A DNA stretch of 50,460 nucleotides from a virus. The notes below the pieces were generated by a model, which worked only from the letters and a program-made list of their open reading frames with translations, searched no databases and was not told where the DNA came from. Below, piece by piece: positions 2,673-43,300 of this stretch. The DNA is taken from IMG/VR virus record IMGVR_UViG_3300035701_000048, positions 1-50,460 of that record. One strand, given 5' to 3'. The translations under genes and the position numbers were made by a program. Position 1 is the stretch's first letter. Every line of letters begins with the position of its first letter.

Positions 2673-3158
2673 ATGCAAGAATGGCATGTTTGGTCTATAA
2701 TTCAGGCTCACTATAAGAATATTGAAAATTTTCTTACTAGTCTTCCAGAAATTGAAGAATTTCTTTACCCCAAAATCATAAAAGAATACGAAACTAAATT
2801 TGGTAGAAAAACTAAGAACATACCTCTATATAGTACCTATATATTTGTAAAGTATGATCATACACCCACCACGATGGCAAAACTTATGTCTTGCGAGTGG
2901 TTGAAAGGGTATATAGGTACGTGTAATGAACAAGAAATTGCGGCGGTAAATGAAGTATCTAAAAAGAAGTATGAAGACCTTATTCCTACTAAAGAAGTAA
3001 AAGTAGGGCATAGATATAAATTAATAGGTACGCCTTTTAAGGGAACGACTTGTTTAGTCAACGATATTTCTAATGATAGAATCACTGTTTCGGTGGAGAT
3101 ATTTGGTTCGGAGAAATTTATAAAATGCGCATACGAAGATCTGGATTTGGAAAGGTGA
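2673..3158 (+). CDS. NusG-like transcription elongation/antitermination factor
   Basis: The 161-aa protein has the two-domain plan of NusG. Residues 3-90 form an NGN-type domain: W-H-V-W-S-I-I-Q-A-H-Y near the start, I-P-L-Y-S-T-Y-I-F-V-K at 50-60, and W-L-K-G-Y-I-G-T at 76-83. Residues 107-160 form a KOW domain: V-G-H-R-Y-K-L-I-G-T-P-F-K-G at 111-124, ending in V-E-I-F-G-S like the 'IFGR' of NusG. NusG proteins bind the clamp of a cellular-type RNA polymerase, and phage or specialised paralogues often act as operon-specific antiterminators. It is slightly shorter than host NusG. Position just before the packaging and structural genes suggests control of late transcription. It could also serve the polymerase-like domain in the tape measure. 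Confidence 0.85.
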   Translation: MQEWHVWSIIQAHYKNIENFLTSLPEIEEFLYPKIIKEYETKFGRKTKNIPLYSTYIFVKYDHTPTTMAKLMSCEWLKGYIGTCNEQEIAAVNEVSKKKYEDLIPTKEVKVGHRYKLIGTPFKGTTCLVNDISNDRITVSVEIFGSEKFIKCAYEDLDLER

Positions 3159-3163
3159 TTATA

Positions 3164-3589
3164 GTGGAAATATTGCGTCGTAGAGGAAGGCCGTTTGGGC
3201 ATCGGCTTAGTGAGGAAACAAAAAATAAAATTCGAATAGGAAGGTCAGGCACTAAACATAGACAAGATACTAAAGATAAAATCTCAAGGTCGTTGTCTGC
3301 TTATTTTAAAAAGCGCGATTCTTTTGCTGCGGCTTTAGAATACGAGTATACTAATATTTCGGATGAGGCACTTGATTGGATTGATGATAATAGAGATGAT
3401 ATCGATATTTCTGATAGTATTATGACTGAAAGACGATTGCTACATTTAAGACAATTGGAAATAAGTATGGGCAGTGAGTTAGAGCAGCTTTTTGGCCATA
3501 ATGCCAACCCTGAATTTTTACTATTGCTTAAAGAAGAATTGATAAGACAGGATATTGGATTAGTAGCGGAGCTGCTTTCAATTATTTAG
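3164..3589 (+). CDS. NUMOD3-type DNA-binding protein before the terminase genes
   Basis: I chose the GTG at 3164 because an AAGGTGAT site (3152-3159) lies just upstream. An ATG at 3125 in the same frame would overlap the NusG-like gene by 34 bases. The 141-aa product begins with basic R-R-R-G-R-P-F-G (AT-hook-like). It then has L-S-E-E-T-K-N-K-I-R-I-G-R-S-G-T-K-H and D-T-K-D-K-I-S-R-S, the repeated helix pattern of NUMOD3, a DNA-binding module usually attached to homing endonucleases. No nuclease motif follows. The rest is acidic and helical. It may be a stand-alone DNA-binding protein, a terminase accessory factor or the remnant of a homing enzyme. Confidence 0.72.
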   Translation: MEILRRRGRPFGHRLSEETKNKIRIGRSGTKHRQDTKDKISRSLSAYFKKRDSFAAALEYEYTNISDEALDWIDDNRDDIDISDSIMTERRLLHLRQLEISMGSELEQLFGHNANPEFLLLLKEELIRQDIGLVAELLSII

Positions 3590-3597
3590 GAGGGTTC

Positions 3598-4128
3598 ATG
3601 GCCCCAAGAAAAAGAGGTAGGCCTAGTAAACTACCTAATCTAAAAGACTTACTAGCAAAAAGTATTCCTACCTCAGAGATTTTTAATGAGGATGAGAAGA
3701 AGATGTATGATAGTTTAATCAACATTTATTTACAGGATTTTGATGAAGACCAACTTACTGCTAATGACATGGATGATATTATGTTAATAGCTATGAATAG
3801 AGTGCTGGAATTCAGATTATTGAAATTGGGTAAAGATAGTGGTATTAGTCAGTTAGATTCGTCGGCTGCTATAGAACGTTTAAGAAAGCAAACAGACAAA
3901 CTCAAAGAAAGTTTGGCTACCAGAAGACGTGATCGTATAGATCCTAAAAAATTTAGTGGTTTCTCTATTGTGGATTTAGCAGCGGCTTTTGATAGCGAAC
4001 ACAGAAATAAATTACTAAAAAGAGACGAGGAGATGGAAGAAGAGGAAGATGGGGTGGTGCAAGCCGGTGATTCTGTAGGTAATAGGTTAGATGAGGATGT
4101 TATTATAGAAGGCGTGGAGGACGAATAG
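3598..4128 (+). CDS. Candidate terminase small subunit
   Basis: The 176-aa protein starts after an AGGAGG site and lies directly before the large terminase, the usual place of the small subunit. It opens with an AT-hook-like K-R-G-R-P-S-K (residues 4-10). A helical central part follows (E-K-K-M-Y-D-S-L-I, then A-I-E-R-L-R-K-Q-T-D-K-L-K-E-S-L) and suits the oligomerising coiled coil of small terminases. It ends in a very acidic tail. Small subunits form rings that recognise packaging sites and regulate the large subunit. The assignment rests on position and architecture, not on a clear helix-turn-helix. Its TAG is followed at once by the TTG of the next gene. Confidence 0.65.
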   Translation: MAPRKRGRPSKLPNLKDLLAKSIPTSEIFNEDEKKMYDSLINIYLQDFDEDQLTANDMDDIMLIAMNRVLEFRLLKLGKDSGISQLDSSAAIERLRKQTDKLKESLATRRRDRIDPKKFSGFSIVDLAAAFDSEHRNKLLKRDEEMEEEEDGVVQAGDSVGNRLDEDVIIEGVEDE

Positions 4129-5823
4129 TTGACATATGGCATAGAATCTCTAGAAGAAATTTTTGAACAGGGTAAAAACTTAGTAGAATTCTATAGACAA
4201 CACCCAGTTCTAGCTGCTTATGATTTATTAAAAGTTGATTTAGCGCCTATTCAGCGGATGGTTCTTAGGGACATGTGGTTCAAGAATTTTACTATTACCG
4301 TTATGTCGCGTGGAGGCGGGAAAACCTTTCTACTAGGCGTTAACGCTGTTCTGCATGCGTTGTTATACCCTGGTTATAGAATAGGATTGATTGCGCCGTC
4401 ATTCAGACAAAGTAAACTGATTTTTTCTGAGGTAGAAAAATTATATAGTAGATCTAGTATACTACGAGAAGCTACTGAAAAACGTCCTACTAGAGGCGCC
4501 GATAGTTGTTTTTTGAGATTTAAAGGCACACCTACTACCAATGGAAGTTATATTGAAGCGCTGCCTATTGGAGCGGATGGCGCGAAGATTCGTGGGTCCC
4601 GTTTCTATTTAATTGAAATAGATGAGTTAGCACAAATGATTCCGGAGATCATTGATTTAGTTATTAGACCTATGGCAGCGGTTTCATCGGAACCTATGGA
4701 GAGAGTTAGAAGCAAAGAGCGTCAAGAAGAACTTATACATCTTGGTTTAGCTACCGAGGACGATTTTACTGACCACGCGGCGAATAAAATGATCATGACT
4801 TCGTCTGGTTATTTTAAGTTCAATCACATGTGGAATAAAATGTGCTCTTATTGGCAAGCTATTAGAGAGCAAGGACCTAATTCTAGATACGCTGTTCATC
4901 AAATTCCATATACTCAATTACCAAAAGCATTTTTGGATGAGGAAAACGTTCGTGAATCACGTAGAATAATGTCTCGTATAGAGTTTATGATGGAATACGA
5001 GGCGGCAATGGTGTCGGATAGTGACGGATTTTTTAAAGCGTCTTTATTAGATGGTTGTACTTTAAACAGTGGGTTTACGGTTAAAGCCAATGGGGAGGCC
5101 GGTAAAGAATACCTTTTAGGGGTAGATCCTAATCAAGGTGGGGCTGCAGCGTGTGGATTGTCTCTAATAGAATTAGGTACTCCGCATAAATTAGTTTTTG
5201 TTCGCGAACTGAAAAAGAAAACCACCCAACAAATGGTCATGGAAATACAACGAATGTGCGGTCTATTTGCTGTTAAAAGAATTTTTATGGACTCTCAAGG
5301 CGGTGGAAAAGCCATAAAAGATTTATTAGAAGAGGGGTATAATAACAATGAACCTATACTTGATTTGGACGAAGAAAAAAATCGATTAAAGCCAGGAAGA
5401 CATATATTGAAATTAGTTAATCCGTCAACTACGTGGATTTCAGACGCTAATTTCGATGCTTTAGCTTTATTAGAAAATAAGCGCTTGAAATTCCCTTCAT
5501 TACCAACCTCGGCAGACCCGACCTCTGAATTGATTTATGAAGATGTAAGAAGACTTAAATCTCAAATGCTAAACATTTTTGTGAGTCAAACAGCCAGAGG
5601 CGCGGTTCATTTTGATACTCCTAAAAAAGGGCAAAATAAGGATTTATATTCATCTTTTATATTGGCGTGTTGGGGCGCAAAAGACTATTTTCGTGACACA
5701 GATGAAGAAGTTCATGTAGCTATGAGGGGTTTGGTTAGACCGCATCGACAAGGGGCAACGTTTGCTGGTGTGGGCATTGGTGCTGGGCAGAACTATACAC
5801 AACAAGCGACATTAAAGAAATAA
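4129..5823 (+). CDS. terL: Terminase large subunit
   Basis: The 564-aa protein shows the packaging ATPase: Walker A S-R-G-G-G-K-T at residues 60-66, a motor strand ending G-L-I-A-P-S-F-R-Q-S, and Walker B L-I-E-I-D-E at 161-166 (D165, E166). The C-terminal RNase H-like nuclease has G-V-D-P at 331-334 (D333) and I-F-M-D-S-Q with D388. A further acidic patch lies near the end (K-D-L-Y-S-S-F). The enzyme translocates DNA into the prohead and cuts concatemers. The start is a TTG immediately after the TAG of the upstream gene, with GGAGG about eight bases upstream; no in-frame ATG lies nearby. The length is normal for the family. Confidence 0.95.
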   Translation: MTYGIESLEEIFEQGKNLVEFYRQHPVLAAYDLLKVDLAPIQRMVLRDMWFKNFTITVMSRGGGKTFLLGVNAVLHALLYPGYRIGLIAPSFRQSKLIFSEVEKLYSRSSILREATEKRPTRGADSCFLRFKGTPTTNGSYIEALPIGADGAKIRGSRFYLIEIDELAQMIPEIIDLVIRPMAAVSSEPMERVRSKERQEELIHLGLATEDDFTDHAANKMIMTSSGYFKFNHMWNKMCSYWQAIREQGPNSRYAVHQIPYTQLPKAFLDEENVRESRRIMSRIEFMMEYEAAMVSDSDGFFKASLLDGCTLNSGFTVKANGEAGKEYLLGVDPNQGGAAACGLSLIELGTPHKLVFVRELKKKTTQQMVMEIQRMCGLFAVKRIFMDSQGGGKAIKDLLEEGYNNNEPILDLDEEKNRLKPGRHILKLVNPSTTWISDANFDALALLENKRLKFPSLPTSADPTSELIYEDVRRLKSQMLNIFVSQTARGAVHFDTPKKGQNKDLYSSFILACWGAKDYFRDTDEEVHVAMRGLVRPHRQGATFAGVGIGAGQNYTQQATLKK

Positions 5824-14674: not shown

Positions 14675-15160
14675 ATGTGGGTAATGGCTCATTTTACACT
14701 GAGCGGCGTCCCCGCTACTGGATTATCTCCTTTAGTTACAGTGGTGGATATAGACAGCGGTGTCACCGTTGTTAGTAGTGGCACGATGGTTGACAAAAAT
14801 GGAGGATTTTATGGGTATGATTTTGCGGCATATGATGTCACTAAAAATTATACCTTTACTTGTGACAGTGTCACTTTAAGTGGTACCGAGAGATATAATT
14901 TCGCTACTAGTGGTGAATACGGTACTATTTTAGATGATATTCATGACACTGTAGATGTGGTAGATGTAAGAACCTTATTACTTAAGAAAATACAGACAAA
15001 TGCGCTAAAATTAAATGATGGTGATACTGGAAACTGGACTTTGTATGCTGACAATGGAAGTGATCCTCTATTAACTTTTAATGTTCGGGATAAAGCTGGT
15101 GATCTGATAATCCAGCAGGTACATGTTCCTTCACAAAGATCAAAGGCTATAGAATACTGA
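14675..15160 (+). CDS. Hypothetical neck-region virion protein
   Basis: The 161-aa protein starts after AAAGGAGG. It has a beta-rich N-terminal domain (A-H-F-T-L-S-G-V-P-A-T-G-L-S-P-L-V-T-V, D-K-N-G-G-F-Y-G-Y-D-F). A predicted helix near residues 90-110 (D-D-I-H-D-T-V-D-V-V-D-V-R-T-L-L-L-K-K) and a second beta unit follow. Small Ig-like plus helix modules of this kind are common next to connector genes. Its TGA overlaps the ATG of the inserted endonuclease gene. Confidence 0.7.
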   Translation: MWVMAHFTLSGVPATGLSPLVTVVDIDSGVTVVSSGTMVDKNGGFYGYDFAAYDVTKNYTFTCDSVTLSGTERYNFATSGEYGTILDDIHDTVDVVDVRTLLLKKIQTNALKLNDGDTGNWTLYADNGSDPLLTFNVRDKAGDLIIQQVHVPSQRSKAIEY

Positions 15161-16059
15161 TGAAACGATTAAATTTAGTGGGTAATAAGTATGGAAGACT
15201 GACTGTTTTGGGGTTTGCTTATGTAAAGCAAGGCAACGCTTGTTGGTATTGTAGATGTGAATGTGGTAATGAGATTATAGCTTTGGGATGTAATTTACGT
15301 TCTGGAAATACGACTAGTTGTAGTTGTTATAATAAAGAAATAGCCAATAAATCACGTAGATTGGATTTAGTTGGGCAAAGATTTGGTAGGTTGATGGTAA
15401 TAAGTAGATGTAAGCACGAAAGCCGACTTGGAAAATTTATTTGTAAATGTGATTGTGGTAATATAGTGCATGTGTCTATTGATCACTTACGTGCTGGTCA
15501 TACTAAAAGTTGTGGCTGCTATAATAAAGAGGTTGCTAGTGCTAGAGTTAAATCAAATCTCATAGGTATAAGATTTAATAGGTTGTTGGTTATAGCTGAA
15601 CATGGAAAAAACAAATATGGTATGATTAGATGGCTGTGTTTATGTGATTGTGGATCAGAGGTGGTTGTTGCTACTAATAATTTGACTGGTGGGCATACTG
15701 GAAGCTGTGGGTGTTATATGCGAGACCGAGCTTCAGAAGCTAATTCCGGTGCTAATGGCCCACATTGGAAAGGAGGCATTTCTTGTAATCCTTATTGTGC
15801 TGTTTGGAGAGACGAAGAATATAAAACTGATATCAAAATAAGAGATGGAAACACATGTCAAAATCCAAATTGTACGAAAACACACAATAAATTAGTTGTG
15901 CATCACATTGATTATAACAAAATGGATTGTAGCCCTGGTAATTTGATTACTTTATGTGTTTCTTGTAATATTAAAGCCAATACAAATAGGCTTGCATGGA
16001 AAGATTTTTATAAATCTGTGCTTAATAGTAGAGAAATTAAAAATGTCAATCATAACTAG
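15160..16059 (+). CDS. HNH homing endonuclease with three zinc-binding repeats
   Basis: The 299-aa protein has three tandem units (about 6-60, 70-124 and 134-189). Each has the pattern L-[VI]-G-x-[RK]-[FY]-x-R-L, then C-x-C-x-C-G and a closing S-C-x-C-Y. These repeats bind zinc and DNA in many phage homing enzymes. The HNH nuclease follows: C233 and C238, H248-H249, N261, C266 and C269. It cuts DNA to promote its own spread. The start overlaps the upstream TGA, and the end runs 17 bases into the next gene, so it is inserted exactly between two neck genes. No intron is visible. Confidence 0.92.
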   Translation: MKRLNLVGNKYGRLTVLGFAYVKQGNACWYCRCECGNEIIALGCNLRSGNTTSCSCYNKEIANKSRRLDLVGQRFGRLMVISRCKHESRLGKFICKCDCGNIVHVSIDHLRAGHTKSCGCYNKEVASARVKSNLIGIRFNRLLVIAEHGKNKYGMIRWLCLCDCGSEVVVATNNLTGGHTGSCGCYMRDRASEANSGANGPHWKGGISCNPYCAVWRDEEYKTDIKIRDGNTCQNPNCTKTHNKLVVHHIDYNKMDCSPGNLITLCVSCNIKANTNRLAWKDFYKSVLNSREIKNVNHN

Positions 16060-22318: not shown

Positions 22319-25300
22319 TTGCCACCAACCGATACCTACAAGATTCAAATTGAATCGATCAAAAATTCAGAAGCGGATCAGCCTACAAAAAATTTAGCTG
22401 AGAAAGTAACTCGCCTAGCTAGTGCTATGGAAAAACTGGAATCGGTAATGGAGAAGGTTGCCCCTATGATGGGCGACACTGGTAGAAGTGCGCTCGACAC
22501 CATCAGAACTGTTACTGGAATAGCTCAGTCCGTTGAAAGGGTTTCTAATAAGATTCAAGATACGGTTCAAGATTTGGATAATGAGATAAAAGGAATGAAA
22601 CGCGATGTTCCTTTAGCCATTTCTCAAGCTAAACAAACCGGTCAAATCGCTATTCAAGCCGCTCGGGATTTTCCTTATGGTAAAGCCATTTTAGATGCTA
22701 TTAAAGATCTTGCTAACACTTATAGACAATCACAAACTTCTCCAACTTATGCGACAGGTAGAGACGAGGTTCTTTCTAGTATATCAAATTTAGTGCGAGA
22801 ATTTGTTAAAAGAGATCGTGATGTTGGTAATATATTAGAAGCTTTGAAAAGCATGACTCAAGCTATGGGTATGGGTAAAATCGGTGCTCCAGCAGGTCAA
22901 CCGGCACTCGCACTCCCATCCACAATCATTGATATTAAAGATTTTAAAGTCGTAACACAAGAAAATATCAGTGCGCCTATTAAAGAACTTACTACAGCTT
23001 TAAAAAGAGTCGAAACCAACACTCAAGGAGAAATAAGTAAAGGTACTAAAATAGATAATAAAGGAATAACTGATGTTCTTAATGCGTTGGTAACGGCTGC
23101 TAGACAGTTAAAAACTGAAACCCCAGAAAAAACTGGAAACATTTCGGAACTTACAAGCGCTATAAAAGAATTAACTGTTATTGTTAAACAACTGCCTGCT
23201 GATGCTCTCCAAACAAGGGACGTTATTTTAAAACAGGTTAAATCGGCTTTAGCCGATACTACCATACCTACTAAACCACATGTGGAAGCCGTAGCCCCAC
23301 AAGCGCAATCTTATGTAGTCGCTCCTACTACAACTAAAATTCATGGTGATGTTGATTTTCTAGGCCAAGCACTTAAAAACATGGGCGTAGAGTTCGAGAA
23401 AATAAAATCCGAACTAAAAGATAAAATTGTAGTCGCCATAGATTTAGAAACTTCACAAATGAAAGACGCTGGTAAAAAAGATACACTCGGTAACGTACTA
23501 AAAACAGCCGATATTATAACTCAAATTGCTACTTTAAAAGGCACACTAGATCAAATACGTTCTGGAACTGCTACTAAGCAAAACATATATGTTAAACCTC
23601 CAGAAGGTATAAATACAGAAAAAGCCTATAACGACCTTATTGGAACTGTCGGTGAAGCCAAAATTGAATTGGGTAAATTATTATCTGAGGGTGTTAATGC
23701 AAAAGACGCTATGTCTTCGTTGGCGGAAACATTAAAAGACGCTGATGCTATAGTAGGACATAACATAGCTGGATTTGATCTTAATGTTATAAACGACCAG
23801 TTTAAAAAACTTGGGATGGACGTTAATCTATCTTTAAAAAAATATGTTGATACTGTGGATTTATCGAGATCGAATTTTCCAAATAGAATGGTCAGTTCTA
23901 TTACTGGTAAAAGGCTTGATACATCGCAACCTCATGCTTTACCACAGATAGAGGGAGACTTATCGTTGGCTGGCCACAAATTTGCAGGTGCAATGCACGA
24001 AGCTTCGCATGATGTTGAAGTGATAGGCCCACTTTTGAATGCTTTTGAAGAAGGCACAAAAGAATATAATGCTATGATGAAAAACAATACCGCGCAGATG
24101 AATGCAATTACTGCTGCATCTAGAGCGGCTGCTGGGCATTTCAAAGAAATAGGTGACACTTCTGCTAGATTAAGTCAATCTATGGCTGCTGCATCTGATA
24201 TTACTGATGAAATGATACAGGGTGGAGCGGATTATAATAGTAAACTTCGAAACGCAACTAGAAGTATCAGTGCTATGGAAGTTATGGGCGATCCAGTTAA
24301 AATGCGCTCCGCTTTACAAGCTATTCAATTCAAAGAGCAGGTTATTCACCCATCAAGTAGACCAGAAAATTTTGGATTTGCCGGGCCGGAAGGATCTACA
24401 AAAGATCAAGCTACTCTTTCTTATCTATCTGGTCTTTCAGAATCATTAAATAAATTACAAACCGGAATTGTAGAAGCTCTTGAACGTGGAATGACCAAAG
24501 GTGTTCAGATTCTTAAGACTAAGGGTGAATCTTTTCAATTAGCCCCAGGCGGTAGAGAATGGGAACTAAAAATTGCAGATGTAAGAGAACTACGAAAAGC
24601 AGTAACTGAAACATATCATAAATATTCCGCTCCAGGTTCATCAGCCGAAGAATTGGTGGATAGTTATAAAAAGGCTTTTGTTGAACGCCGCTTATCTACT
24701 CCAGTTCCAGCCTCTGAAATGGCAGCTTCAGTAGTAACAACAATAAGAGGTCTGACTAAAGAGCAGGCCAGTTCTCTCGGAGAAGATGTAAAAAATATTT
24801 TCGACAAAATACAACAAAGAAGTATAACAACCGAAGATGTTGAAAGTAACGCCGGATTGTATGGACTTTATAAAAACGTATCTCTTAAATTAGAATCTGA
24901 AAAGTCTGTAGAAGGATATATGAAGCGTTTGGCTATTCCTGCTGCGCGTGTGTCACAACAAGGTATTCCTATTTTAGAAACCAAGTATGGAGCAGAAAAA
25001 GGATTAGCTAATTTTGCTACTATTACCACAGGTTTAGAGAAGTTAATCGAAGAGTTGAAATTATTAAATACTCCGCAGATGGATGTTGAGAGATACAGCA
25101 GACAACTTTCTAATATTCCTTTACGACCGGCAACCGGATCTACTGGAGAAGCCGCTGCTGCAAAATTGGCGGAAGAGTTGCTTAGTGAAGTATCTGGTCG
25201 AGGCGGTACTAAACTTATTAGTGGCGGTTATGCTTCAGCCGCTACACTTAAAGAAGTAGATCGTGGCACCCCTCTTGAAGAAGCTCGTACCAAAGTCATG

Positions 25301-28300
25301 GGCTATGGCGCGAAAGGACTGGAGTCTTTAATAGAAGAATCTGGTAAATTGGGTGTCACAGCGCTTGATGTAGCTAAAGCTTTAAGTGAAATAAAACTTG
25401 ATAATTTCTACGATATGCTAAATCAGCTTCTTCAAGCTGGTAAAGTACCGTATTTAGAAAAACAAGCAGCGAATATTCATAAGTTTGATAGAAATCTTCG
25501 AGAAGTGTCGGGTGTAATTAACGATGTTATGGGCTTGATGCCTATGATAGAACCCGGTCGTCCACTAAGAAAGCCGTATGATGCGGCATCCTTGAGAGTA
25601 TTGACTAAGCCAACGGAAGAGTTGCGCCCAGCCGATGCTAAGTCTCACATAGTAGAAGCTAATTTACTTTGGAAAGATATGGCTGAAAACTCTAAAAAAT
25701 TGGGCGAAACCATGATTCAGGGCAAAGAATACATGGGGCAACCGATTGCGTCTTCGTTGGATTTAAGTGATGCTGCTAGTTCAGAATTAAAGCAATTTAA
25801 TCTTGAGTTTGGAAGTCGTTTACAATCTATAGATAAAACTATGATTGGAATGAATACGTCTGATTTACGTGGGTTATCTCCATTCAAGGATTTTAGTTCT
25901 ATTCAAAGACAGGTATCTTATATTACTAGTGGATTAACTGGTGGTATTCCTGGCGGCGGAAAATTTGAAACACCGTCTCTAGTAAGTGAACGTGAACGTA
26001 AATCCATTGAATCGGGTCAGTTTGGTACCGAAGGTTATGGTCTTAATGTTTTAACTGAAATAAGAAATACCGCTGGTACTTTTGAAGACCAAATCATGAT
26101 TGCTGGAAAGTTAGCCAAAGCATTTACGAATATAGTCCAAAGATTAGTAGAGCCTGGCACTAAAGTAGACATAACAGAGATTGAATCCGGAACTCAGAGA
26201 GTATCGTCACGCGCAAGAGATGAATTAAATAAACAAGTAGGCGATGTAGCAAAAGAATTTCAGACTATTTTAGGAGTTCCGGAGAGATATAGAGGTCGCG
26301 CTGATGTGGCTGAAATAGGTAAAGAAGTTGAGACGGTGATGAGAGAGCACCGTGGACAGACAATTGATGTTCAAACTGCTAAGTTAACAGAGACTTTCTT
26401 AGATTATTTTGGTAGAAAATTAGCCACTCGTTTTGGAACAAAGGGAGTTTCTATAACACCAGAAACAGCTCCTACTGAATTTAGAGAATATCAAGAGCTT
26501 GCTAAACTAATGGCCAGTGGAATGAAAGCTAAAATTGTTCCAGGCGAAGGGCTTGGCTATGCTCCTGTACCTAAGAGCGCCGGAACTTTGGTTTCTGAAA
26601 TGTTGTCAGACGCTTTTAAAGGATTACATACAGCCGAAGCCCCAAAAGAATTACACGATAAGTTAATTGAATCGGGTAATAAATTTATATCGGACTTATT
26701 TAAAGACACAAGATTAGTATCCGAAGATGAGGCCAAAAAGCAAACAGAATTATATGAACGAGTTAATAAAATTTGGACTGAAAAATTTGGCGAAGAGCTT
26801 CCTACAGGACCTTCTGGGATTAAAAAAATACGAAAATTATATGAGACTAATGAAACGTCTGCCGAGAACGGTATAATAGAAGAGGGCGAGTCGAGATCTG
26901 CTTATACAATGCAGCCTATAGAGGCTAGAATTAGTGCTCGTGGTATAGCAAAAAGAGGATTAATGCCAGAAGTTTTAGAGGCTATAATTAATAATTTAAT
27001 TGGAAGTAGGTCTGGAACTACTACCATTAAAGATACCATCGATGAGAAAGTTTTGACTGGAAGTAAAGAAGGACTTGCTACTATAAATGAATATTTAAGT
27101 AATTTAGGTTATGAAAAATTTACTGATATAGGTGAAATGGTTAAGAGACTTAAATCAGAAAATCCTAAACTTACTGATGCAGACATTGATAAATTAAAGG
27201 AATATGAATCTAATTGGTCAGTTTATACCACTATTTTAGATGAGTTTGGTAAAAAAACACAGGCTTTAGTTGCTCCTAAATTTTTACAAATAATAGAAGA
27301 GCCTCATCTGTTTGGTGAATGGACTCCACGCGAATTGGATAAAGGTGTTAAGGGTGCCAAATTAGATTATCAATCTTTCTCTGCATATGCTGGAATTTTT
27401 GGTGAAGGATCATCAATGCTTAAAGAATTAGCTGGATCCACTTCTTTGAATTCTAAAGAAGGGTGGGAATTAATTAGGGCATTCCAATTGATGGATCCGA
27501 CAATGAAGAATTTGAAGGAAAGTATTCTAGAGGGTTTACCTAAAATAGAGCTTTCAGACATTACTGAAAAATTCGAGGGCGCTACTGGAACAGTAAAAGA
27601 ATTAAAAGATACCATTCTAGATATAGCTAAATTTCCAACAGCTATGTCTCTTAAAATACCTGGTGCTAAGTCTGGAACTTATGATCAGATGTACGTTCCA
27701 GGACCAGCTCTTCGTGGAACATACCAAGAAGATTTGATGGGTAGAGCAGCTCCTACAAACGTTGCACGTTATTTAGCAAATCTAATAAATTCTGCAAAAG
27801 ATGTGGAAGAACTGACTGGCGCAGCTGCCAAAGGAAATATAGGATTAGGTGAGGAATTCCAAACCAAATTTGCTTCCACGCTTAAAGCCGAGTTAGTTAA
27901 AGCTCTTACTGATTTAATGAACAGATTTAAAGATATGGAAAAAGCACCTACTCCACAAAATATTGCTTTTATGGAAGAGATGATCAAGAAGTATAAGGGC
28001 GGTTTATCTACTGAACGCCCGGTGTCTCCTATTTATCAAGAGGGGCTTGGAACATCGGAAGCGGAAGCGTTTGAGGCGTTTGCTGGTAAAACCAAAGGTC
28101 CTAAAAAATATAGTACTACTATGGGCAGGCTTTCTGATTTGTTGATTGGCGCCGATCCTGAATCTCTTAGACGAGAAGAAGCTCGTATTAAATCGGCAAC
28201 AAAAACTTATGAAGAAAGTGGTAAAAAGCGAATTCCTTATGAGGTACTTTCAGAATCAGAGAAGGGGCGTTTAGAAAGCGGCACCGGTTTTGAAACCATG

Positions 28301-31300
28301 ATGCAGCAACATTTACGTAGAACTCAAGAGCGTGGTAAAGCTAAGTCTATATTTGAAGTGGAATTAGAAGCTTATAATCTTGATGCTTTTACTAAAAAAA
28401 TTGGAATGAGTCTCCAACAATCAGTTGAAGAAGCATTAACTACAAAGATGGAGTCTTTAAGCCGCGCTAAAGTGGCTTATGCTGAAGCGTTAGGCGAAGA
28501 AGTTTTTGGAAAGAAGAAAGGAATTGAGCAAACATTTTTTCAAAGAGTGACTCCAGCTGTTACAGGTAAAGCTGTTTCAGCTGTTACTGATAAAACCGAA
28601 GAGTTAATGACTCTTTTAACAGTGCTTAAAGATAATGAAATAGCAGGTTTAGAAGGACTGTCGGGTAGTTTAACAAAAATTATAGCGGGTCATAGCGAGT
28701 ACGTAGCTAAATCTAAACAATTAGGACTTCCAGTATTAAAGGAAGGTGAGATTGGTCTGCCTGGCGAAATGGCTAGAAAGGTCCCAGTAGAGGGAGGAAA
28801 TCTAGCTGATCTAATTAAGAAGCAACAAGAAACTTATGTAGAATCTATTAGATATCCTTTTACTGGAACGTTGAGTGTTCAACCACACAAAGCTAAATTG
28901 ATGGAAGACATTCTTCCTGAAGGCGGCAAGTACGGTAAATACTCAATTGCAGTTCCAGGCGCGCCTCAGCTTGATTTGCCAGAACTAAAGAAAATAATTG
29001 ATACTCTAAGAGAGTATATTGGTGTAGAGCCTAAAAAGAATTTGCCTAGTAATGTAGTTCCTTTGATGGAGCAGCGCGAAAAAGCTTGGGCTGAAAATAC
29101 AGATGCTGGTGCTCAGAAAGTCGCTGAGTTGACTAAAAATATAGAACAACTTCTCGCAGTAGTTGATAAGGCATCTCCAAAATTTATAGACATGGAGCAA
29201 AAACTAGATTTTGATGGTGATGCTTTGTTTGTACATACAGGGCAATTAGAAAAATCAAGAGAAGAAATTAAAAAACATTATGATATGTTAGGATCTGATG
29301 TTACGGCTGTTAGAAATCTTTTTCGATCGGTGTTTTCAGCTGTGAAAGACACAGATGTAGCAAGTTTATCAGAGATGTCTCAGGTTTTTGCTAAGAAACA
29401 TCCAAAAGCGAAGGGTTTTGAATTTCTTACCAAGCCCTATGTGACAGAAGGCGCAGAGAATCTTTCGATGCCAGAAGTTATAAAAGCTTTGCAAGAATAT
29501 TCTCCTGAAGCTGCTGGAAAGAAACCTCAAGAGTGGATGACCAAGAATTTAACATCTAATGTGATGCCACAAGTATTTGGTCGTTTAGGTGTTCCGGAAG
29601 GCGAAAGGCCTGGCTATCTTACTAACATGAAAGTAAGTGAGGAAGGATTACCAACTGTTGGTGGAGAAGGGCAGTTTGTAAAACGTATTAATGAGTTAAC
29701 CGAAGAATTATTAAGACGACAATTAGTTGAGAAGAAATATAGTGATGCTATTGAAGGGCAGCTTTTTAAATTACATACAGGTATTACAGTAGAAGGCATT
29801 AGTAGAATTGCTAGAATGACGGAGTTAGAAACAGGTTTTGGCCCTGGTTTAGCTAAAACTGGTTCAGGCGGGCCTCCGTCAAAAGAATTTTTGTCTAGAT
29901 GGCCTACAGAGAGTATGGCTCTTGATAAAAAACCCGCTGAAGCGTTTGCTGTACGAATAAATGAGATGCTTAGATTTGTGATTCAAAAAGGCATGGATGT
30001 AAAGCACGCTGGTGTTGAAGCAGTAGGCCAGAAAATAATTGAAAATCTCAATAAAGCTACTGGTGCTCAGAAAATTAAAGAAGCAATGTCCAGTATGAGC
30101 GAGCAGTTTGGTGAACTTGCAGATTTCAATGCACAAATCTCAAACGAAGTTAGATTGAGAGTAGGTAAACTTTCTACTCCACAGTTGAAAGAAGAACTTA
30201 AATTATTTGAGCCGGACATAGACGCCGCTAAATTATCTAATGATCGTGAAGAATTAATTAAAGGAATTATAAGTCATGTGGATATGAATGCGGTGTTTGA
30301 AGAGATATTCAAACAAATTCAATCCAACGCTATTAAAGGATACACTGAGCAGTTGGATAAACAACTTAGAGACATGCCGGCTGGTCCTTCTAAAGTAGCT
30401 TTATTGCGACAAGTTTCTGCCGCTGGTTCAAATGAAACAGTAGCTAGACAAAAAATAAAAGAAGAGTCCGAAACACCCGAAGGTATTAGTGTTTTAAAGT
30501 ATATAACCACACCACTAAGCCCGCTATATAAAATGCGGACTTCTATGGAAACTATAGGCACAGCAGCGCGCCGATCTGATGTAAAACTTCCAGAAGAAGA
30601 TTTAGGCTTACCAGCTACCGAAGAGGGTAAAAGATTAGCTAAAACGTTTGATGAAGTAAGGAAAGCAGCGAATACTCTGACTTCTGGGTTGGAAACTTCG
30701 GTTAGAGTTCCTACCAGAGGCGTGCATACGATGATGGTAGAGAGTGCGATAGAGAAGCGATACAAAGATCTTAAAGATCTGCTTGAGTTTTCTAAAGCGT
30801 CTAGTGAAAGTCCGACTAGTTTTCCGTATGCTTTTGCTGGAATATCCGATACCAGCAAAATGGCGTCTAAAACCTGGAGTGAATCGATGGGTGCAGCTGG
30901 AGTTTCTGGAGCTGGTTTGGTTCCCCCAGGAGAAATGGATATTACTTCTTGGATAGACCAGTTATTGAAAGCTAAAAAAATTGCGGAAGAAAAACTTGAG
31001 GAGTTGTCAGAAAAAGCAGGTCTTCCACAGATTTTACCTGAGGAACAAGCATTAATTGGATATGAATTTGAAAAACAGCACGGCAAACAGATGTCTGCTA
31101 ATGTTAGAGACTATGTTCAAAGAGGAGCTGCAGCTAAAGGTACTACGCTTTCCGAACAAGATTTACAAGCTCAAACAAATGAAATTTATCAAACCGCATT
31201 GGATGTTACTAAATTCCAAGCTACCATAGTGGAACAGTTCAGACGAATAGATGAAATGATAAAGACTGTTCCTGTTCAAATGGCCTACCTACGTGAAGCC

Positions 31301-34300
31301 TTTCCAGCTTTTGGATTGGATAAATCTACTCAAACAGCTGCACAATCTATACAAGAAGCTGCAGCGGATCACAGAACAACGTCAGAAAAAATCGAAGAGT
31401 ATTGGCAGAAGCAACGTGGAGTTTCTAAAGAAGCTGGTAAAGTTGTAGAAAACTCTATTAAAGGAATTGGAGAATCGCAAGCTGCTGGGCAAGATTTTTC
31501 TGGTGGGCTAAGAACTCCATCCGGAGTTTCTCAAGCCATAGACAAAGCCGATTTGGAACGAAAGCGCCGATCATTGCAGTATTTAGAAACAGTGGCTAAA
31601 GGTGGCGAAACATCAACTAAACTAGGCTTTGTTTCTGCTAGTCAGATCCACGCTGGTGGAGCTTATGGTGGTGGAACCCAAGAAGAAGCTATTACTAAAG
31701 CAATGGGTGGGGAAGACGCTGGAACCTTTGCTGAAGCTACTGCTTTTAGAGGTGGGGCTCTTCATAGACAGATCCAAGCCGAGTACGTTAAAAAATACCC
31801 AGGAACTAAAATTGAACAGTATGTAGAAGATGTAGAAAACAAAATAAGCGGTCACTTTGACATTCTTTACGAAGAAGCTGGCCAAAAAATATTAACTGAT
31901 ATTAAAACTATTTATAGCACGGCTGTTTTTGATCGCCTAAAAGAATTGTCAAGCGAAATAGAAAATCGCAAAATAACTGTACAAGAAAAATTAGAGGAAT
32001 TAAAATCTAATAAATCTATGTCTGATTTTGATAAAGATATAGTTAGACGACTAGAAGATTATTTAAGTCAAGTAAATGTTTACTTAAAGCATGTTGAAGG
32101 CGCCACAGGAAAAATTTTAGGCGTAAGTCAATTTAATACAGCTGAAAGATTTGAAATTCCAGTAGGTAAGTTTGATCCTGCTAGATTTGAAAAAGATTTG
32201 TCTGTGGTAAATAAAGCAAGAGGTGGAGTTCCTACTGGAACAGTTGCTACCGAAACCGCGCCTCAAGCTAGTGCGGCGGAAATTCTTAATAGGATGAATC
32301 CAGAGCAGCAAGATCGCTATGATAAATTAAGCAAATCATATATGGAAGATATTAGACGAGCACAAGAGCAAGGCTTGTTTAATAAAGGTGAACAGTGGTT
32401 TGCTACAGGCGGCGCTGGAGGAACCGAAAGTAAACGACATATTTTAGCTCCGGGTGAAGTTCCTAGTTTTAAAGGGACATTAATGGGTGCTGGTGGGGCT
32501 GGGGTTGGTGGAATGCCCCCAATTCCTCCAACTGGTGGTGGTGGCGGTGGAGATGATGATGATTTCTATAAGAAATTAAAAGAACTTCTTGATGGATTAA
32601 ATAAAAGAATTAAAAATGTTAATGAAATTCAAGTAGAAGAGATTGTTAAATTAGTTGAATACTATGAACAAGCGGGGATAGCAGCTGACGCTGCGCGTCA
32701 ATCTGGAAATGAAGATTTAGCTGGTTCTTTCGATGTAATACGTAAAGAAATCGAAGCTCTGATGACAAGTAAAGGCCAAGCCCTAGATTCTGCTAAGAAA
32801 ATAGCGGATTATTATAAACAATTAAATCAGTCCCTATCTGCCAGTGCTGGTGCTGGTGGGCCTTCTGATTTTGGTAGATTAGGAATGCCGCAGATTGAAA
32901 GAAACGCGCCAGAGAGGCCGGAAGCTAAACACCAAAACTTACGTGCCATGTGGGAGTCTTCGGTTAAGTACTATAAATTGGCGGACACTACGGAATTAAA
33001 CAAATTTCCTGGTGGTATTAGCGATATAATTAAATCTACTGCTGAACAAGGTCCTACACCAGACATAACTAAACAAATAAGAGAAGCCATTGCTGGTCTT
33101 CCTGAAGGACAACAAGGTGGAATGCGTAGAATTTGGATGTTCTACAAGAAGGCAGTGGGAGAATACTATCTAAAGCGCTTAGATGAACTAAAGCAAACCA
33201 TAGAAGAAGAAGGCGATTCTTCTAAGGCGCGACAAGCTTACGCGGAATACGAACAAGTAGTTGATAAGTACATAAAGAATATTGAATCTACTTTAACTAA
33301 GATGAGCGACATTTATACTAAAGTTGGTCCATCTGGAGTTAAGGGGGAATGGGTAGAACCTGATTTAGCTAAACTTACTGGTATGTATGAAGACCCCAAA
33401 AAATTAGCTGACCGTATTAAACATGATTATAAAATGAAGGCTAATGTACAACCTCTTATGGATACAATGGTTGGGGATTTGGATGCCACCAAGTTGGATC
33501 AGATGGCAACGCCTATAGATAAAGTAAGAGAAGCTTTTAGACAGATAACTGCGGAAAAGGCTGATATTAAGCCTTTGCTTGCTGATCTAGAAACTTTTAA
33601 ACGTCTAGGTCCTGAAGCGGTGCAAGCTTGGGATTTTAGTAAAATTTCTCAGGATGTGACCGAACTTAGAGCTGGTATGCAAGCGTTCCATAGATTGAAT
33701 TTGTCTGGTTATGGTGGATTGGGTGAGGGATATACTGAAGTAGTTCGTAAAAATGTTGAAGACACAATTAAATTATTGAAGCAACTAGAAAACTCCGTAT
33801 CTTCAGGTAATTTAAAAGCTTCAGAGTATAAACTGACTCCGGTTCCTCAATTTTTAGACACCGAATCGCAGAGATTGCTACATCGTAGAAATGTTGTACA
33901 ATTGCGTGAGACTTTTAGAACACCTACAGAAGCTGGTGGGCCACAACCAGGAGCAGCAATTAATTATAAAATGCGCATCATTGACCCCGCTTCAAAACAA
34001 GAAATAGAAAATGTTCGCGTGGAGTTTAATAAATTAGGTGAATCGGCAACTACAGCTGGAGTTAAGATTGGACTGTTCTCAGAACGATATGAGAACATGC
34101 TTACTAATTTCCAGGACAGAAGAGGAATAGGTCAAGCTTTTGAACGTGTTATCAGATGGGGTCTCGCTAGTAATGTAGTTTATGGTTTAACTGGCGCGCT
34201 AAATGACATGATACAGACCATATCTGATACAGAACTTGGAATGGCTAAGTTACGCCAAGTTATGAGCCCATTAGAAACCGATTTTACTAAACTTCAAAAT

Positions 34301-37300
34301 TCTGCTGTGCAGTTTGCTAAAGAGTATGGAACATCGGTTAATAAAGTATTAGAAGGTATGATTGTTTATGCTCAACAAGGTATAAATCAAAGAGAAGTTG
34401 TGGATAGAACTCAAACTTCTATGATGGCCGCTAATGTAACAACATTAAATGCTGCGGATGCTACCGAAGCTTTAACGGCTGCCATGATGAATTATGGTAA
34501 AGAAGGCGAGACAGCCATGAGATTTTTGGATTCATGGACGGAAGTTGAAGCTAGACATGCTGTTACTTCGAAAGATTTAGCTGATGCTTTAAGACGTACT
34601 GGTGCTGTTGCTAAGACTGTGGGTGTTACTTTCGATCAGTTAAATGGTATAACAACTGCCATCGGAGAAACAACCAGATTTACTGGAGCAGAAATTGGAA
34701 CCGCTGAACGATATATTTTTAGAAGATTAGAAACGGGAAAAGGACCAGCAGAATTATCCAAGGTAGGTATTGGTATTACTAGTAAAACAGGTGACTTGAG
34801 AAGTGCTTTTGATATTTTAGGCGATTTAGCTGGAGCTTGGGACAAATTAACAAATTCTCAGCAACTAAATATTGCTGCCGCTATAGGTGGTTTGCGTCAT
34901 TTTAACTCATTAATTGTTTTAATGGAGAATTGGAATGAAGCTTTAATTGCAACTCAGCAAAGCATGGATTCTAAAGGCGCCGCAGAAAGACGAAATGCCA
35001 TTGTAATGGATACGTATGCTAAGAAAATTGAGCAGGTAAAAGCAGCTGTTTCCGAATTACAAATTCAATTTGGTAGTGCTTTCTTACCGGTTGCTAAAAC
35101 TTTCTTAGATGCCGTTCGTTCTATAGTTGAAGCTTTTAGTAATATTCCACCATGGGTTAAAGCTACTGGCGCAGTACTTGGCGGCTTCTTTGTAATGTTG
35201 GCCAAGGGAAAGGATATTTTAGATTACTTTCATGGAATGTTTGGTGGGTTTGGGTCATCTGTAAAAGACGCTATTTCCACAGCAGTCCTTGAATGGAAGA
35301 AAGGTTTATTTGAAATTTCTGGATTTAAGTCTCCTGGATTAAATATTACTGGGCTAAAGAAAGTCACTGAAGTAGGCCACGTTTCTGAATTAGACACAAT
35401 GATGGGCAAGTTGGTTTATAAGATAGCTCCTATTGGTAGAGCGTGGAATAGTGTGCTTACAGATGTATTTAAAGGCGCTAGTACTGTCACTGACAAATTA
35501 GCTGATATGTTTGATTATATTGCTGGTAGTTCTTTTAAATTAAAAGGTGCTTTGAGTTTGACTGGTGTCGGATCATTTCTTGGTGCTGGTCTAGCAGGAT
35601 TTGGGGCTGTTTCAGATGTAGCGGCCTATGGATTGGATAAAATTTCTCAACTTTTAGGAATGACTGCGCAGCAAACTGCTAAATGGACGCAAGAAAACAC
35701 CGGTCTTTTAGCTACTTTTGGTCCATTGATAGGATCGTTTATTATTTTGGAACCTTTGCTTGCTAAACTATGGAATGGAATAAAACGATCGGCTATGTCT
35801 TCTAAGGATTATCAAGTTTCATTGGCGGATACTAGACGACAACAATCTGATCAACTTAGTGCTATAAGAGAATTAGCTTCGGGATATGATATATTAGAGA
35901 AACGATTGAAAAACGCTCAGAGAATGGGTGATCCTAAAGTTGCAAAAAAAGCCATGGATGAAGGTACTTATAAATCACCTACTAGGGAAATTGGAAATAT
36001 ATTAGAAGCTACTGTTGAATATAGTAATAAGTTGGCTGATAGTAATGATAAACTAGTTTTAAGTTATGATAAGTTTGGTAATGCTGCTCTTAAAGGTGCT
36101 GACAGTCTTAAAACTTTTATTAAGGTAGCGGAGACTTCCAAAATAGGTGAAATGTTCAGCACAGATTTAGATATTTTGAAAAAACATCTAGAAGATCTTA
36201 CAGATGTTGGTTTTGGTGAAAAACTTAAGCGTGAACTAAAACGATTTTTAAATGAGATTCCGGGATTTGGTCCTCAGATGGCAAAAATGATACATGTTTC
36301 ACCTGCCAAAATGTTAGAAGAAGAGACTGGTAATATAGATAAATTACTTTCTGCCAGAGCTCGATATCCCATGACCACAGCTTTTGATAAGACTATAAAA
36401 GAACGATCAGAATCATTAAAAAAGTCTAGAGATGAATTTCAAGATACGTATAAAGAGTTTAAGAAAATTTTAGCTGAACTTCCTACAAAGGGTTTAAGTA
36501 GTGGGCAAATTCAAGGAGCTCTTACATCGCCGGAACTACAAGAAGGCTATAAATTAATGGCTCAAATGGAGCCAAGACTTAGAGTTACCCCAGAAAGTAA
36601 TAAGACGGAACGTATTCCTGGATTTTGGAGCAATTTGATTAAGGGTGCAACAGGGCATGATATTGCTGCTAGACAAAAAGTACAATGGCAAGATGTTATG
36701 GGCATAGAAGTAATGAAGCGTTTAAATCCTGATCAGCCGTTTGATTATACTAAAAAATTAACGCAGGGATTGTTTATGCAATCTGGGGTGCAACCAAGAA
36801 AAGTGGGAGACACAGTATTTTCAGGAGAACGTGTTTTCTTTAGTGATAAAATAGCTGAGAAGTATAAAATAGCTGCTAACCAAGGTATTTTGAAAATAAC
36901 AGAAACTGCTAATGGTTTTATGGAAAGATCGGTAGAAGTTTTTGATACGGCGTTAAATAAGATGCGAAAACTTCCTTATGGGGCTGTGTCCAAATATGTT
37001 GAAAATATTTTTCCAATTAAGGCTATTCAGGAAGATTTATCTGAAAATTTAGAAGCTATGAAGGAAATGGTAGTTGGGGCAGAGGCTGGACTTGTAGGGC
37101 TAACGGGCAAACAGTTTAAGAAAGATTTTCCTTTGGGGGCAAGGTTTTTTAGTCAGATACCCACGAGTACTCTTATTCAGAGTACCAAAGGATACCAACC
37201 TGGAACAGGGTATGGGGAAATTCCATTTAAACAAGATTGGCCTAAATTTTTAGAAGAGTCTTTTATTAAACCAATGCACACTTATAAGCTAATGACTGAC

Positions 37301-40300: not shown

Positions 40301-43300
40301 GAGCAGCAACCAGAAGAGGACAAGTTGAATCGACAACAGTCGGCTGCGGAACAAACTCGTCAAATGCTATTGGAGGCTCAAAGAAATATAAATCTTCTTC
40401 CTGAGAGTGAGACTAAGATAAAAGGATTGGCTGAAGTAGAGGAGTTGGTTAATTATCTAGAAAATCAGTTATACAATAGTGGGTTTAAACGTACAGTAGC
40501 AGATGAGTATTCAGGAGTTACAAGAGAAGAATACCTTGGTGTTAGTTTAAGTGGATTTGAAACACGAATTAAAAATATAATATCTAAATTTGGCCCAATA
40601 GACGCGAAGACATTGACAGAGCTTGAGAAACAAACTGGTATATTAACCAATATAGAAGACGTTTTGAGAAAGGCTTACAATATACCAAAAGAAATATCAT
40701 CACCTATTTTTCCATATCAAAGCTCTAATATGGAATCATTTAAAGGAGCGGATTATACTGTTAACGATCGAGATGAAGCTTTACGGAAGAAGATCAGTGA
40801 AAGTATGCCATCTGAGGCTAGATTTATTGGTAGGGAAGCTAGTGCTAGACGTGGTGGCAAATCGTTGGGTGAAGAAATAGAGCAAGGTTCACAAGCTTTT
40901 GTTGATTTTGGTTCACTAATTAAAAGGAAGTGGAATGAATTGGGTGTATATTTAAACGCTCCTAATGCGGACGAACCTCCTATACGAGTTTTAACTTTTC
41001 AGGATGAACTCGACAAAGCTGGGGCAGCTATAACCGAATTTAGCAACATTGTGTGGGAAAAGGGAGGTAATGCGATAAAGACTGTTTTAGAATATTTTGC
41101 GCAACCCGATCTTATACCTCCGCAATGGCGCAATAATTATGGCGATGATTATGTAGCACCAGAGGGGCAACAAACAGGCGGCCAGATTGTTGGCCCTGGT
41201 GGTCCTACAGATGATGTAATTCCTATAATGGCTAGTTCTGGGGAATATGTTATTAAAGCAGCCTCTGCTAAAAGATTAGGTAAAAACGCATTGAATTATA
41301 TTAATACCACTGGTCAACTACCTAGACTCGCTGGCGGCGGAGATCTTGATTATTTTTATAACCCAGAAAATCAATTTGATGAAAGCGGCTATTTTCCAAA
41401 ATCGGAACAGGGAGCAGCTAAATCACAAGGGACTTCCTTTGTTGACACCTGGTCTAGAATTTTAGGAAAAGCCGGAGCTGGTGTTGGTGAATTTGCTGGT
41501 AATATTACTGATTATTGGTCAGGTAAAAGCCCAGATAATTTCTTACTTCCGAATATGTCTATGTGGACTAAGGAAGAAGAAATGGATTATGCTAGACAAA
41601 ATCCTAATAAATATGCTCTTACCGCAACTGCTGCTAGTTTTATGCCAATGGCAAAATATGCTTATTCACCCACCGATGTGGAAGAATTTAATGCATCTAG
41701 CAGAGGCTCGAAATTATTGTCTATAATGTCAGAGACTCCTGGTAAAATAATGGGTGGGGGTAAAGCAGCTGCCAATTTGGGAAAACTAGGCCAAGGAGTG
41801 GGAAAACTAGGCCAAGTTGTAGGAAAGGGCGCTAAAGAAACATATGAATTGGGACAAAATTTTGGCGTTCAATCTGCTTTGAATGTCTCAGGTAAAGTGA
41901 TTAAAATAATGGATTTTATTGGTGTAGGTGATCCCGCATTATTAAAAAGCAAATTAGCTACTAGAGCAGCGGAGTCATTGGAAGACTATTTTTATAAAGT
42001 TGTTGATAAGGTTGGTATAAAGGCTTTATTTGATAAAAATATGTTTGGTTACATGTTTTTTGATTCTAAAAATGTGTCTGCTTCCAAGAAAGCAGTGAAA
42101 GATGCCATTGATCAGATAGCTGAATTTACAAAGTATGTAGATCCGCATGACATTAATTTTAAAAAATTCTCAGTAGGTACTAGTGAATTTCTAGGGGATT
42201 ATTCACAAAAAACTGGTACAATAAGATTAGGTATGCAGTCTTTACTTAACCCATTACAGACAGTAAAAGATTATGCAGCTAGCACTGTTAAGAAGTCATC
42301 ACCATGGCATCCATTTACACCACGGGCTACGGACGTATTTAAATCCACCATGTCGCATGAGTTGGGGCATGGATTTACTAAGCCAGGTCCTGGTGCACAT
42401 GTTTCTGGTTCAGCTGAGAAAATGGTTGGTTTGGGTAAAAATACGTATGAAACTACGCAAAAATACTTGGATACACAAACAACAAAAGCTGTGTCTGGTA
42501 CTGGTAGATTTAAACGGCTTAAAGACGTTTATGATTTTTATTCGCAATATGAAAATGAAGCTCGTGCCATAAAAGAAGTGAAGGATAGCATAGCTGAGTT
42601 GACGCCTAAAGTGTCTAGCCGTTATGGATTAACAAATGTGGATGAAAAGGTAGCTACTTTAATAGAAGGGGCAATGCACACACCCATGAAATATGCATTG
42701 CCTGATGTTAAACAGGCGAAAAAATTACTTGGTATTCAATATGCTGAAGGCGGTTCAGTTATGCCTTCGGAATTAGTAGCTTATGTAAATAAGATTATGG
42801 CTCAGAAAAAGTCTGGTAAACTTATGGTAGGGAATTTGGTAGCTAAACAAGACGCTTCTGGTAAATGGACTTTTAGTAATGCCAATAGAATAGACGAATT
42901 AACGAGAGCTACCACAGAAGGTCGTCGTGATCCTTGGGAATTAATGAGTTCAGCAGCACCTTTTGGTTTAACTGGACCATCCGATATATCTAAACTTGGG
43001 CCAGCTAATGCGGCTGAATTTGCTCAGTCTGGTAGATATGCTTCTGTTGGTGAAGGTGATAATAAAGTGTTTGCTTTTAGAGACGATAAAGGCCAGTGGG
43101 TATTAAGTAATGTAGGAGATAGCATACATAAATATGGTCCGGCATCCTACGCTCAAGGCACGTCTTATGTTCCTAATACTCAATTAGCTATGTTACATAA
43201 AGGTGAGGCGGTTATTCCGGCTAAATTCAATCAAGGCGGTCAGGTTGGAAATGTTATAGATACAGCTGATATGGCTGACATAGGTACGCAAATTAGTGAT

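Follow-up and report, generated by a model that had tools for sequence, protein, structure and literature searches.

What is a nuclease doing inside a phage tape-measure protein, and what would it cut? The question is raised by IMG/VR virus record IMGVR_UViG_3300035701_000048, which was analyzed whole (50,460 bases) and is referred to here as the window. A first-pass annotation had placed a RecB/Cas4-like nuclease domain just before the tape-measure core, and had suggested that an enzyme delivered with the genome might destroy the host chromosome or competing phage DNA, or might counter host nucleases. Here we consider in turn whether the domain is real, how it is inherited, whether it would enter the cell, and on which DNA it would act.

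Organization of the giant tape-measure gene

The giant gene (22286–43762) matches the tape-measure family phrog_4211 at 2.1e-83 and, like all of its features described below, lies on the plus strand. It contains 7158 stop-free codons when counted from 22286, the first possible start. Translation more likely begins at a TTG at 22319, which GGGAGGA precedes, and the protein would then have 7147 aa. Residue numbers in this paper, including those of the nuclease active site, are counted from 22286; numbering from the TTG runs 11 lower. The order of domains is a DnaQ-type exonuclease (residues ∼383–585), a polymerase-like region (∼1196–2770), the nuclease (3132–3314) and the tape-measure core (about 4005–4200; 34298–34891), the last identified as PhageMin_Tail (PF10145, 7.6e-31). 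The nuclease therefore sits between the polymerase-like region and the tape core, as had been described. Beyond the core are a candidate membrane segment at residues 4474–4492 (35705–35761; Kyte–Doolittle mean of 1.83 over 19 residues), which is downstream of polymerase and nuclease alike, and a HELGH sequence at residue 6691 (42356–42370). This zincin-like assignment was made from the motif. With a Glu downstream, HELGH could mark a zincin peptidase; it is unseen in most relatives, many of which end before that point.

Genes for the terminase and major head protein lie upstream of the giant gene. The structural module also contains an HNH endonuclease gene (15160–16059; 25 Cys in 299 aa), which is probably a homing-type insertion. 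Scans of the region for repeats and promoters gave no excess over expectation. On three related contigs (L020, L074 and L079) the giant protein is seemingly split over more than one frame, representing either true splits or sequencing errors.

The nuclease active site is invariant among relatives

When used as a query, the window's own nuclease domain (31679–32227) finds nothing in IMG/VR, among named phages or in the PDB. Relatives were instead reached first through the polymerase-like region, which as a query identified 26 and then 41 loci in IMG/VR, and subsequently through an alignment of the nuclease domain. The polymerase-like region has no relatives among 50,697 named phages, and no cultured relative was found. 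A nuclease profile run against the relatives' giant frames locates the domain at the same place, about 700–920 residues past the DF/YDGD polymerase motif described below.

Comparison of 28 distinct sequences shows that the residues expected of a RecB-type active site are identical in all of them: H3160 of a G-x-x-x-H motif (31763–31765), E3177 (31814–31816), G3189 and D3192 of GxxD (31859–31861), D3205 and K3207 of the D-I-K form of D-x-K (31898–31906), and Q3262, N3264 and Y3266 of a Q-x-N-x-Y helix motif (32069–32083). Residues Q3132, G3156 and D3304 are likewise invariant. The first-pass annotation had named H3149, D3181, D3194 and K3196 with a downstream Q/Y helix; these are the same residues numbered exactly from the TTG at 22319, and the conservation of D-x-K that it proposed as a check holds in 28 of 28 sequences. 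The motif constellation by itself is moderately unusual and proves little, as a loose RecB-type pattern matches 2.5% of whole-protein shuffles and 0.6% of local 600-aa shuffles. Mean pairwise identity across the domain is 30%, however, and because the active-site residues are conserved throughout at this level of divergence, we conclude that the domain is real; conservation rules out a chance motif as its origin. Judged by its sequence, the domain is apparently an intact, metal-dependent, DNA-cutting nuclease.

Predicted fold and family assignment

An AlphaFold2 model of the nuclease domain was computed from a 17-row alignment (pLDDT 85.8, pTM 0.81). In the numbering of this model (A1), to which 3106 is added to obtain giant-protein numbering, the secondary structure consists of a helix at 40–64, strands at 69–76, 81–91 and 94–103, a helix at 141–161 and a strand at 167–175. 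D86 is on the second strand, D99 and K101 are on the third, and Q156 and Y160 are on the next long helix. As modeled, this αβββαβ arrangement is that of a PD-(D/E)XK enzyme. The predicted structure was the place where the earlier assignment could have failed, and the PD-(D/E)XK core is present in it.

The best Foldseek match to the model is SSO0001 (2.2e-5), which we take to be a Cas4 protein, followed by AdnA (2.2e-4) and human Exo5 (4.3e-4). Alignment with VIA-align gives Z scores of 11.9 for SSO0001, 10.6 for MGME1, 10.4 for LHK-Exo, 9.7 for lambda exonuclease, 8.6 for Exo5, 8.4 for Dna2 and 7.8 for AdnA. At the level of sequence profiles, the Cas4-like family phrog_1706 matches 15 of 17 members (best 1.5e-9; window 6.1e-4) and Pfam PDDEXK_1 (PF12705) matches 5 of 17 (best 1.7e-5), with the window's own sequence unmatched by the latter. 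A search of the PDB with a profile of the nuclease alignment returned chance matches only. SOX and other alkaline nucleases are found among the lower structural matches with Z of about 7, which raises the idea that the domain cuts RNA for host shut-off, as the SOX branch of this fold does. We consider this very unlikely, because the better matches are DNA exonucleases and the QxxxY and GxxD motifs belong to the RecB/Cas4 branch.

The fold and the H, GxxD, DxK and QxxxY motifs are shared with the branch that includes RecB, Cas4, AddB–AdnA, Dna2, Exo5, MGME1 and lambda exonuclease. The window domain differs from this branch in being embedded in a tape measure, in having no helicase partner that we could find and in lacking iron–sulfur cysteines. 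There is no cysteine in any of the 28 domains, which therefore are without a Cas4/AddB-type iron–sulfur cluster, and the absence of the four cluster cysteines rules out Cas4 proper. No helicase family scores above threshold in the giant protein, and the neighboring genes, which were scanned in part, yielded no helicase partner; the fused helicase that defines a RecB/AddB helicase–nuclease is thus missing from the giant protein. The RecB/Cas4-like assignment is upheld by conservation, profiles and predicted fold, but not in the strict sense of Cas4. On the basis of the model, the domain at 31679–32227, within the 21-kb open frame, belongs to the RecB/Cas4/lambda-exonuclease type of PD-(D/E)XK domains.

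The neighboring region is a probable RNA polymerase

The region upstream of the nuclease (25871–30595) contains the sequence KLDFDGD at residues 2306–2312 (29201–29221) and an invariant QKGMDVKHAG motif at residues 2567–2576 (29984–30013). KLDFDGD or KLDYDGD is found in 36 of 36 distinct relatives, a set gathered partly by the DF/YDGD motif itself, although six other peptides had served to identify the first 26. In a structural model spanning residues 1196–2388 (pLDDT 65, pTM 0.35), model positions 544–1149 align with RNA polymerase β′ chains with Z up to ∼8, and positions 895–1122 of this low-confidence model align with a designed double-psi barrel with Z of about 6–8. Foldseek gave no confident match for the 1193-residue model, and a weak match of the region to KIF21A was rejected as a coiled coil.

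The closest precedent is gp96 of the Thermus siphovirus P23-45, a tape measure–polymerase fusion for which experiments showed presence in the virion and binding to early phage DNA (PMC10770324). Its polymerase was recognized by the same motif, without sequence similarity to known polymerases (PMC10770324). Like the window protein, gp96 is a single giant Cys-free tape measure; its DFDGD two-barrel polymerase precedes the tape part, as the probable polymerase does here. It is shorter (5002 residues vs about 7150 here), its polymerase region has no detectable sequence similarity to that of the window, and our profile detects no PD-(D/E)XK domain in it (best score 1.1 bits). Comparisons of the window's polymerase region with gp96 and with PDB chains, including profile comparisons, revealed no relation. 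Taken together, the motif, the middling fold match and the P23-45 precedent indicate that region ∼1196–2770 is a probable two-barrel RNA polymerase.

Nuclease and polymerase descend together, but the nuclease can be absent

A tree of the polymerase region with 36 rows includes 28 relatives with the nuclease, 5 without it and 3 that are cut off. The nuclease is therefore absent from 5 of 33 testable relatives, which requires at least three separate changes on the tree, and the polymerase motif is kept in all 36 rows, including those that lack the nuclease. Divergence of the nuclease parallels that of the polymerase (Mantel rho of 0.74, 0 of 2000 permutations), and this congruence rules out recent domain shuffling. 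The tree changes alone leave gain and loss undistinguished; with the domain present in 28 of 33 relatives and diverging in parallel with the polymerase, loss is the simpler reading. A scan of genome contigs produced a single match, which lies on a 20-kb contig from a Gammaproteobacteria MAG; the fetched stretch ends before the domain.

Lineages without the nuclease mostly have less sequence separating the polymerase from the tape core. This, with the absences themselves, counts in favor of a dead nuclease fold retained as a structural spacer, but a spacer would hardly keep every catalytic residue invariant across 28 sequences of such low identity, and we regard this explanation as extremely unlikely. 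Because the domain is inherited with the polymerase yet missing from some relatives, it is probably a useful but dispensable enzyme, which we infer to be delivered with the polymerase. The pattern of absence favors an accessory role and names no target; breakdown of host or competitor DNA and a counter to host nucleases, the roles raised in the first-pass annotation, are both possible.

Other nucleases encoded by these phages

The giant protein of the window carries a second putative nuclease, a DnaQ/RNase T-type (DEDDh) 3′–5′ exonuclease domain at 23432–24040 (PF00929, 8.6e-6; phrog_403, 4.7e-11) in which D386, E388, D498, H571 and D576 are kept. Profile hits to this domain occur in 7 of 7 members of the window's clade, with none convincing outside it.

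Of 10 records checked, 6 have a separate PDDEXK_1 gene encoding 387–427 aa, and in two of these 6 the fused domain is missing. Two examples, at 2979–4262 on the minus strand of L086 and 3057–4220 on the plus strand of L088, are near DnaJ, glycosyltransferase and thymidylate synthase genes. The two neighborhoods, with DnaJ and thymidylate synthase and, in one of them, a Toprim primase gene, are replication or nucleotide modules. One standalone protein compared with the fused-domain profile gave no match. Since the standalone gene occurs with or without the fused domain, it is unlikely that the standalone nuclease moved into the tape measure, and the fused domain is not simply a replication nuclease relocated.

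Evidence bearing on delivery

Not one cysteine occurs among the 7158 residues of the giant protein, vs 116 in the 8365 aa (1.4%) encoded by the 33 other genes of the window, and the relatives' giant proteins have 0–4. P23-45 gp96, the N4 virion RNA polymerase (vRNAP), lambda H and parts of two other tape measures are also Cys-free. Depletion of cysteine fits passage through the tail and periplasm; it is seemingly general in such proteins and does not constitute proof, and cysteine avoidance may mark tail-ejected proteins generally. Delivery with the genome, as suggested by the first-pass annotation, thus gains indirect support from the fusion of tape measure and probable RNA polymerase as in P23-45 and from the near-absence of cysteine, a trait shared with the N4 polymerase, which is ejected.

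The order of domains also bears on where the nuclease would act. The polymerase should end in the cytoplasm because it requires nucleotides and ribosomes, and because the nuclease sits between the polymerase and the hydrophobic segment, it would be on the same side of the membrane. The N-terminal half of siphophage tape measures is expected to be nearest the head, and on this ground the nuclease might act in the producing cell rather than the infected cell, in tail or head–tail assembly (for example, in trimming DNA at the portal). This role is improbable, as the neighboring polymerase makes sense only after entry and several lineages do without the domain.

A proposed role at genome entry

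From the computed fold, active-site conservation, fusion order and pattern of inheritance and absence, we infer catalysis, ejection, topology and target, and propose with about even confidence that an intact RecB/lambda-exonuclease/Cas4-type nuclease in a polymerase-bearing tape measure is delivered by the virion and acts at entry, likeliest on non-self DNA. In this model, the giant protein would be packed in the tail tube and would leave it before or together with the DNA, and its later segments would insert in the inner membrane. The polymerase would reach the cytoplasmic side and the nuclease likewise, tethered at the entry pore, where it would cut or resect DNA within minutes of the onset of infection. 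The likeliest target would be non-phage DNA, such as host chromosome ends or forks, plasmids, or defense or competing phage DNA. Attack on non-self DNA is our first choice because the domain is evolutionarily dispensable and additional to the standalone nuclease. A fuller version, in which this widespread group of uncultivated siphophages injects a tethered polymerase and RecB-like nuclease (joined by a DnaQ exonuclease in one clade) to transcribe the phage genome and destroy non-self DNA at the entry site, is offered tentatively, as a possibility we hold to be the weaker bet.

The main rival has the nuclease working on the phage's own genome as it enters, trimming or resecting the leading ends so that the genome can circularize through terminal-repeat annealing, for recombination, or so as to open the template for the neighboring polymerase. 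It takes this place because domain and polymerase have evolved together and because the fold is like that of end-resecting exonucleases (the closest folds include lambda exonuclease, LHK-Exo and RecE); the nuclease also adjoins the polymerase, and in the window's clade the DnaQ-type exonuclease is in the same protein. We nevertheless think it rather unlikely, given that the tree shows three separate points at which the domain is lacking while the polymerase motif is kept, and that the tape-fused polymerase of P23-45 works without a nuclease domain (PMC10770324). Two considerations weigh against attack on non-self DNA. The domain tracks the polymerase phylogeny without swapping, unlike many arms-race effectors, and this would also fit housekeeping in genome entry. 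In addition, a nuclease tethered at the pore would have to spare the phage's own entering DNA.

Relation to known systems and implications

The virion RNA polymerases of N4 and crAss-like phages are also giant virion proteins, but those phages are podoviruses and their polymerase is separate from the tape measure. A similar combination of several enzymes in a single chain, presumed to accompany the DNA into the host, is seen in the polyvalent proteins of phages and conjugative elements (PMC5512222). The phage examples are described as likely capsid-packaged and, in the part of that source considered here, occur mostly in portal–terminase contexts, with no tape-measure or Cas4 example. The SNIPE defense nuclease (PMC13190303) acts at the tape measure and entry pore, as is proposed here for the window nuclease, but it is host-encoded and anti-phage, whereas the window nuclease is built into the tape measure of the phage itself. 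Searches of open-access papers other than bioRxiv preprints turned up no tape measure described as carrying a nuclease domain, a result that falls short of proving absence. The tape-fused virion polymerase was already known from P23-45; what the present sequences add is a conserved nuclease beside a probable polymerase.

Tape measures are regarded as rulers and channel formers, and a fused polymerase has been proven in one case. The conservation of a nuclease next to the probable polymerase in 28 or more distinct phage sequences suggests that entire sets of enzymes are delivered by tails, and that in these phages a nuclease is injected as infection begins. How an injected nuclease would spare the phage's own DNA becomes a testable question, and tape-measure proteins become a place to search for injected effectors.
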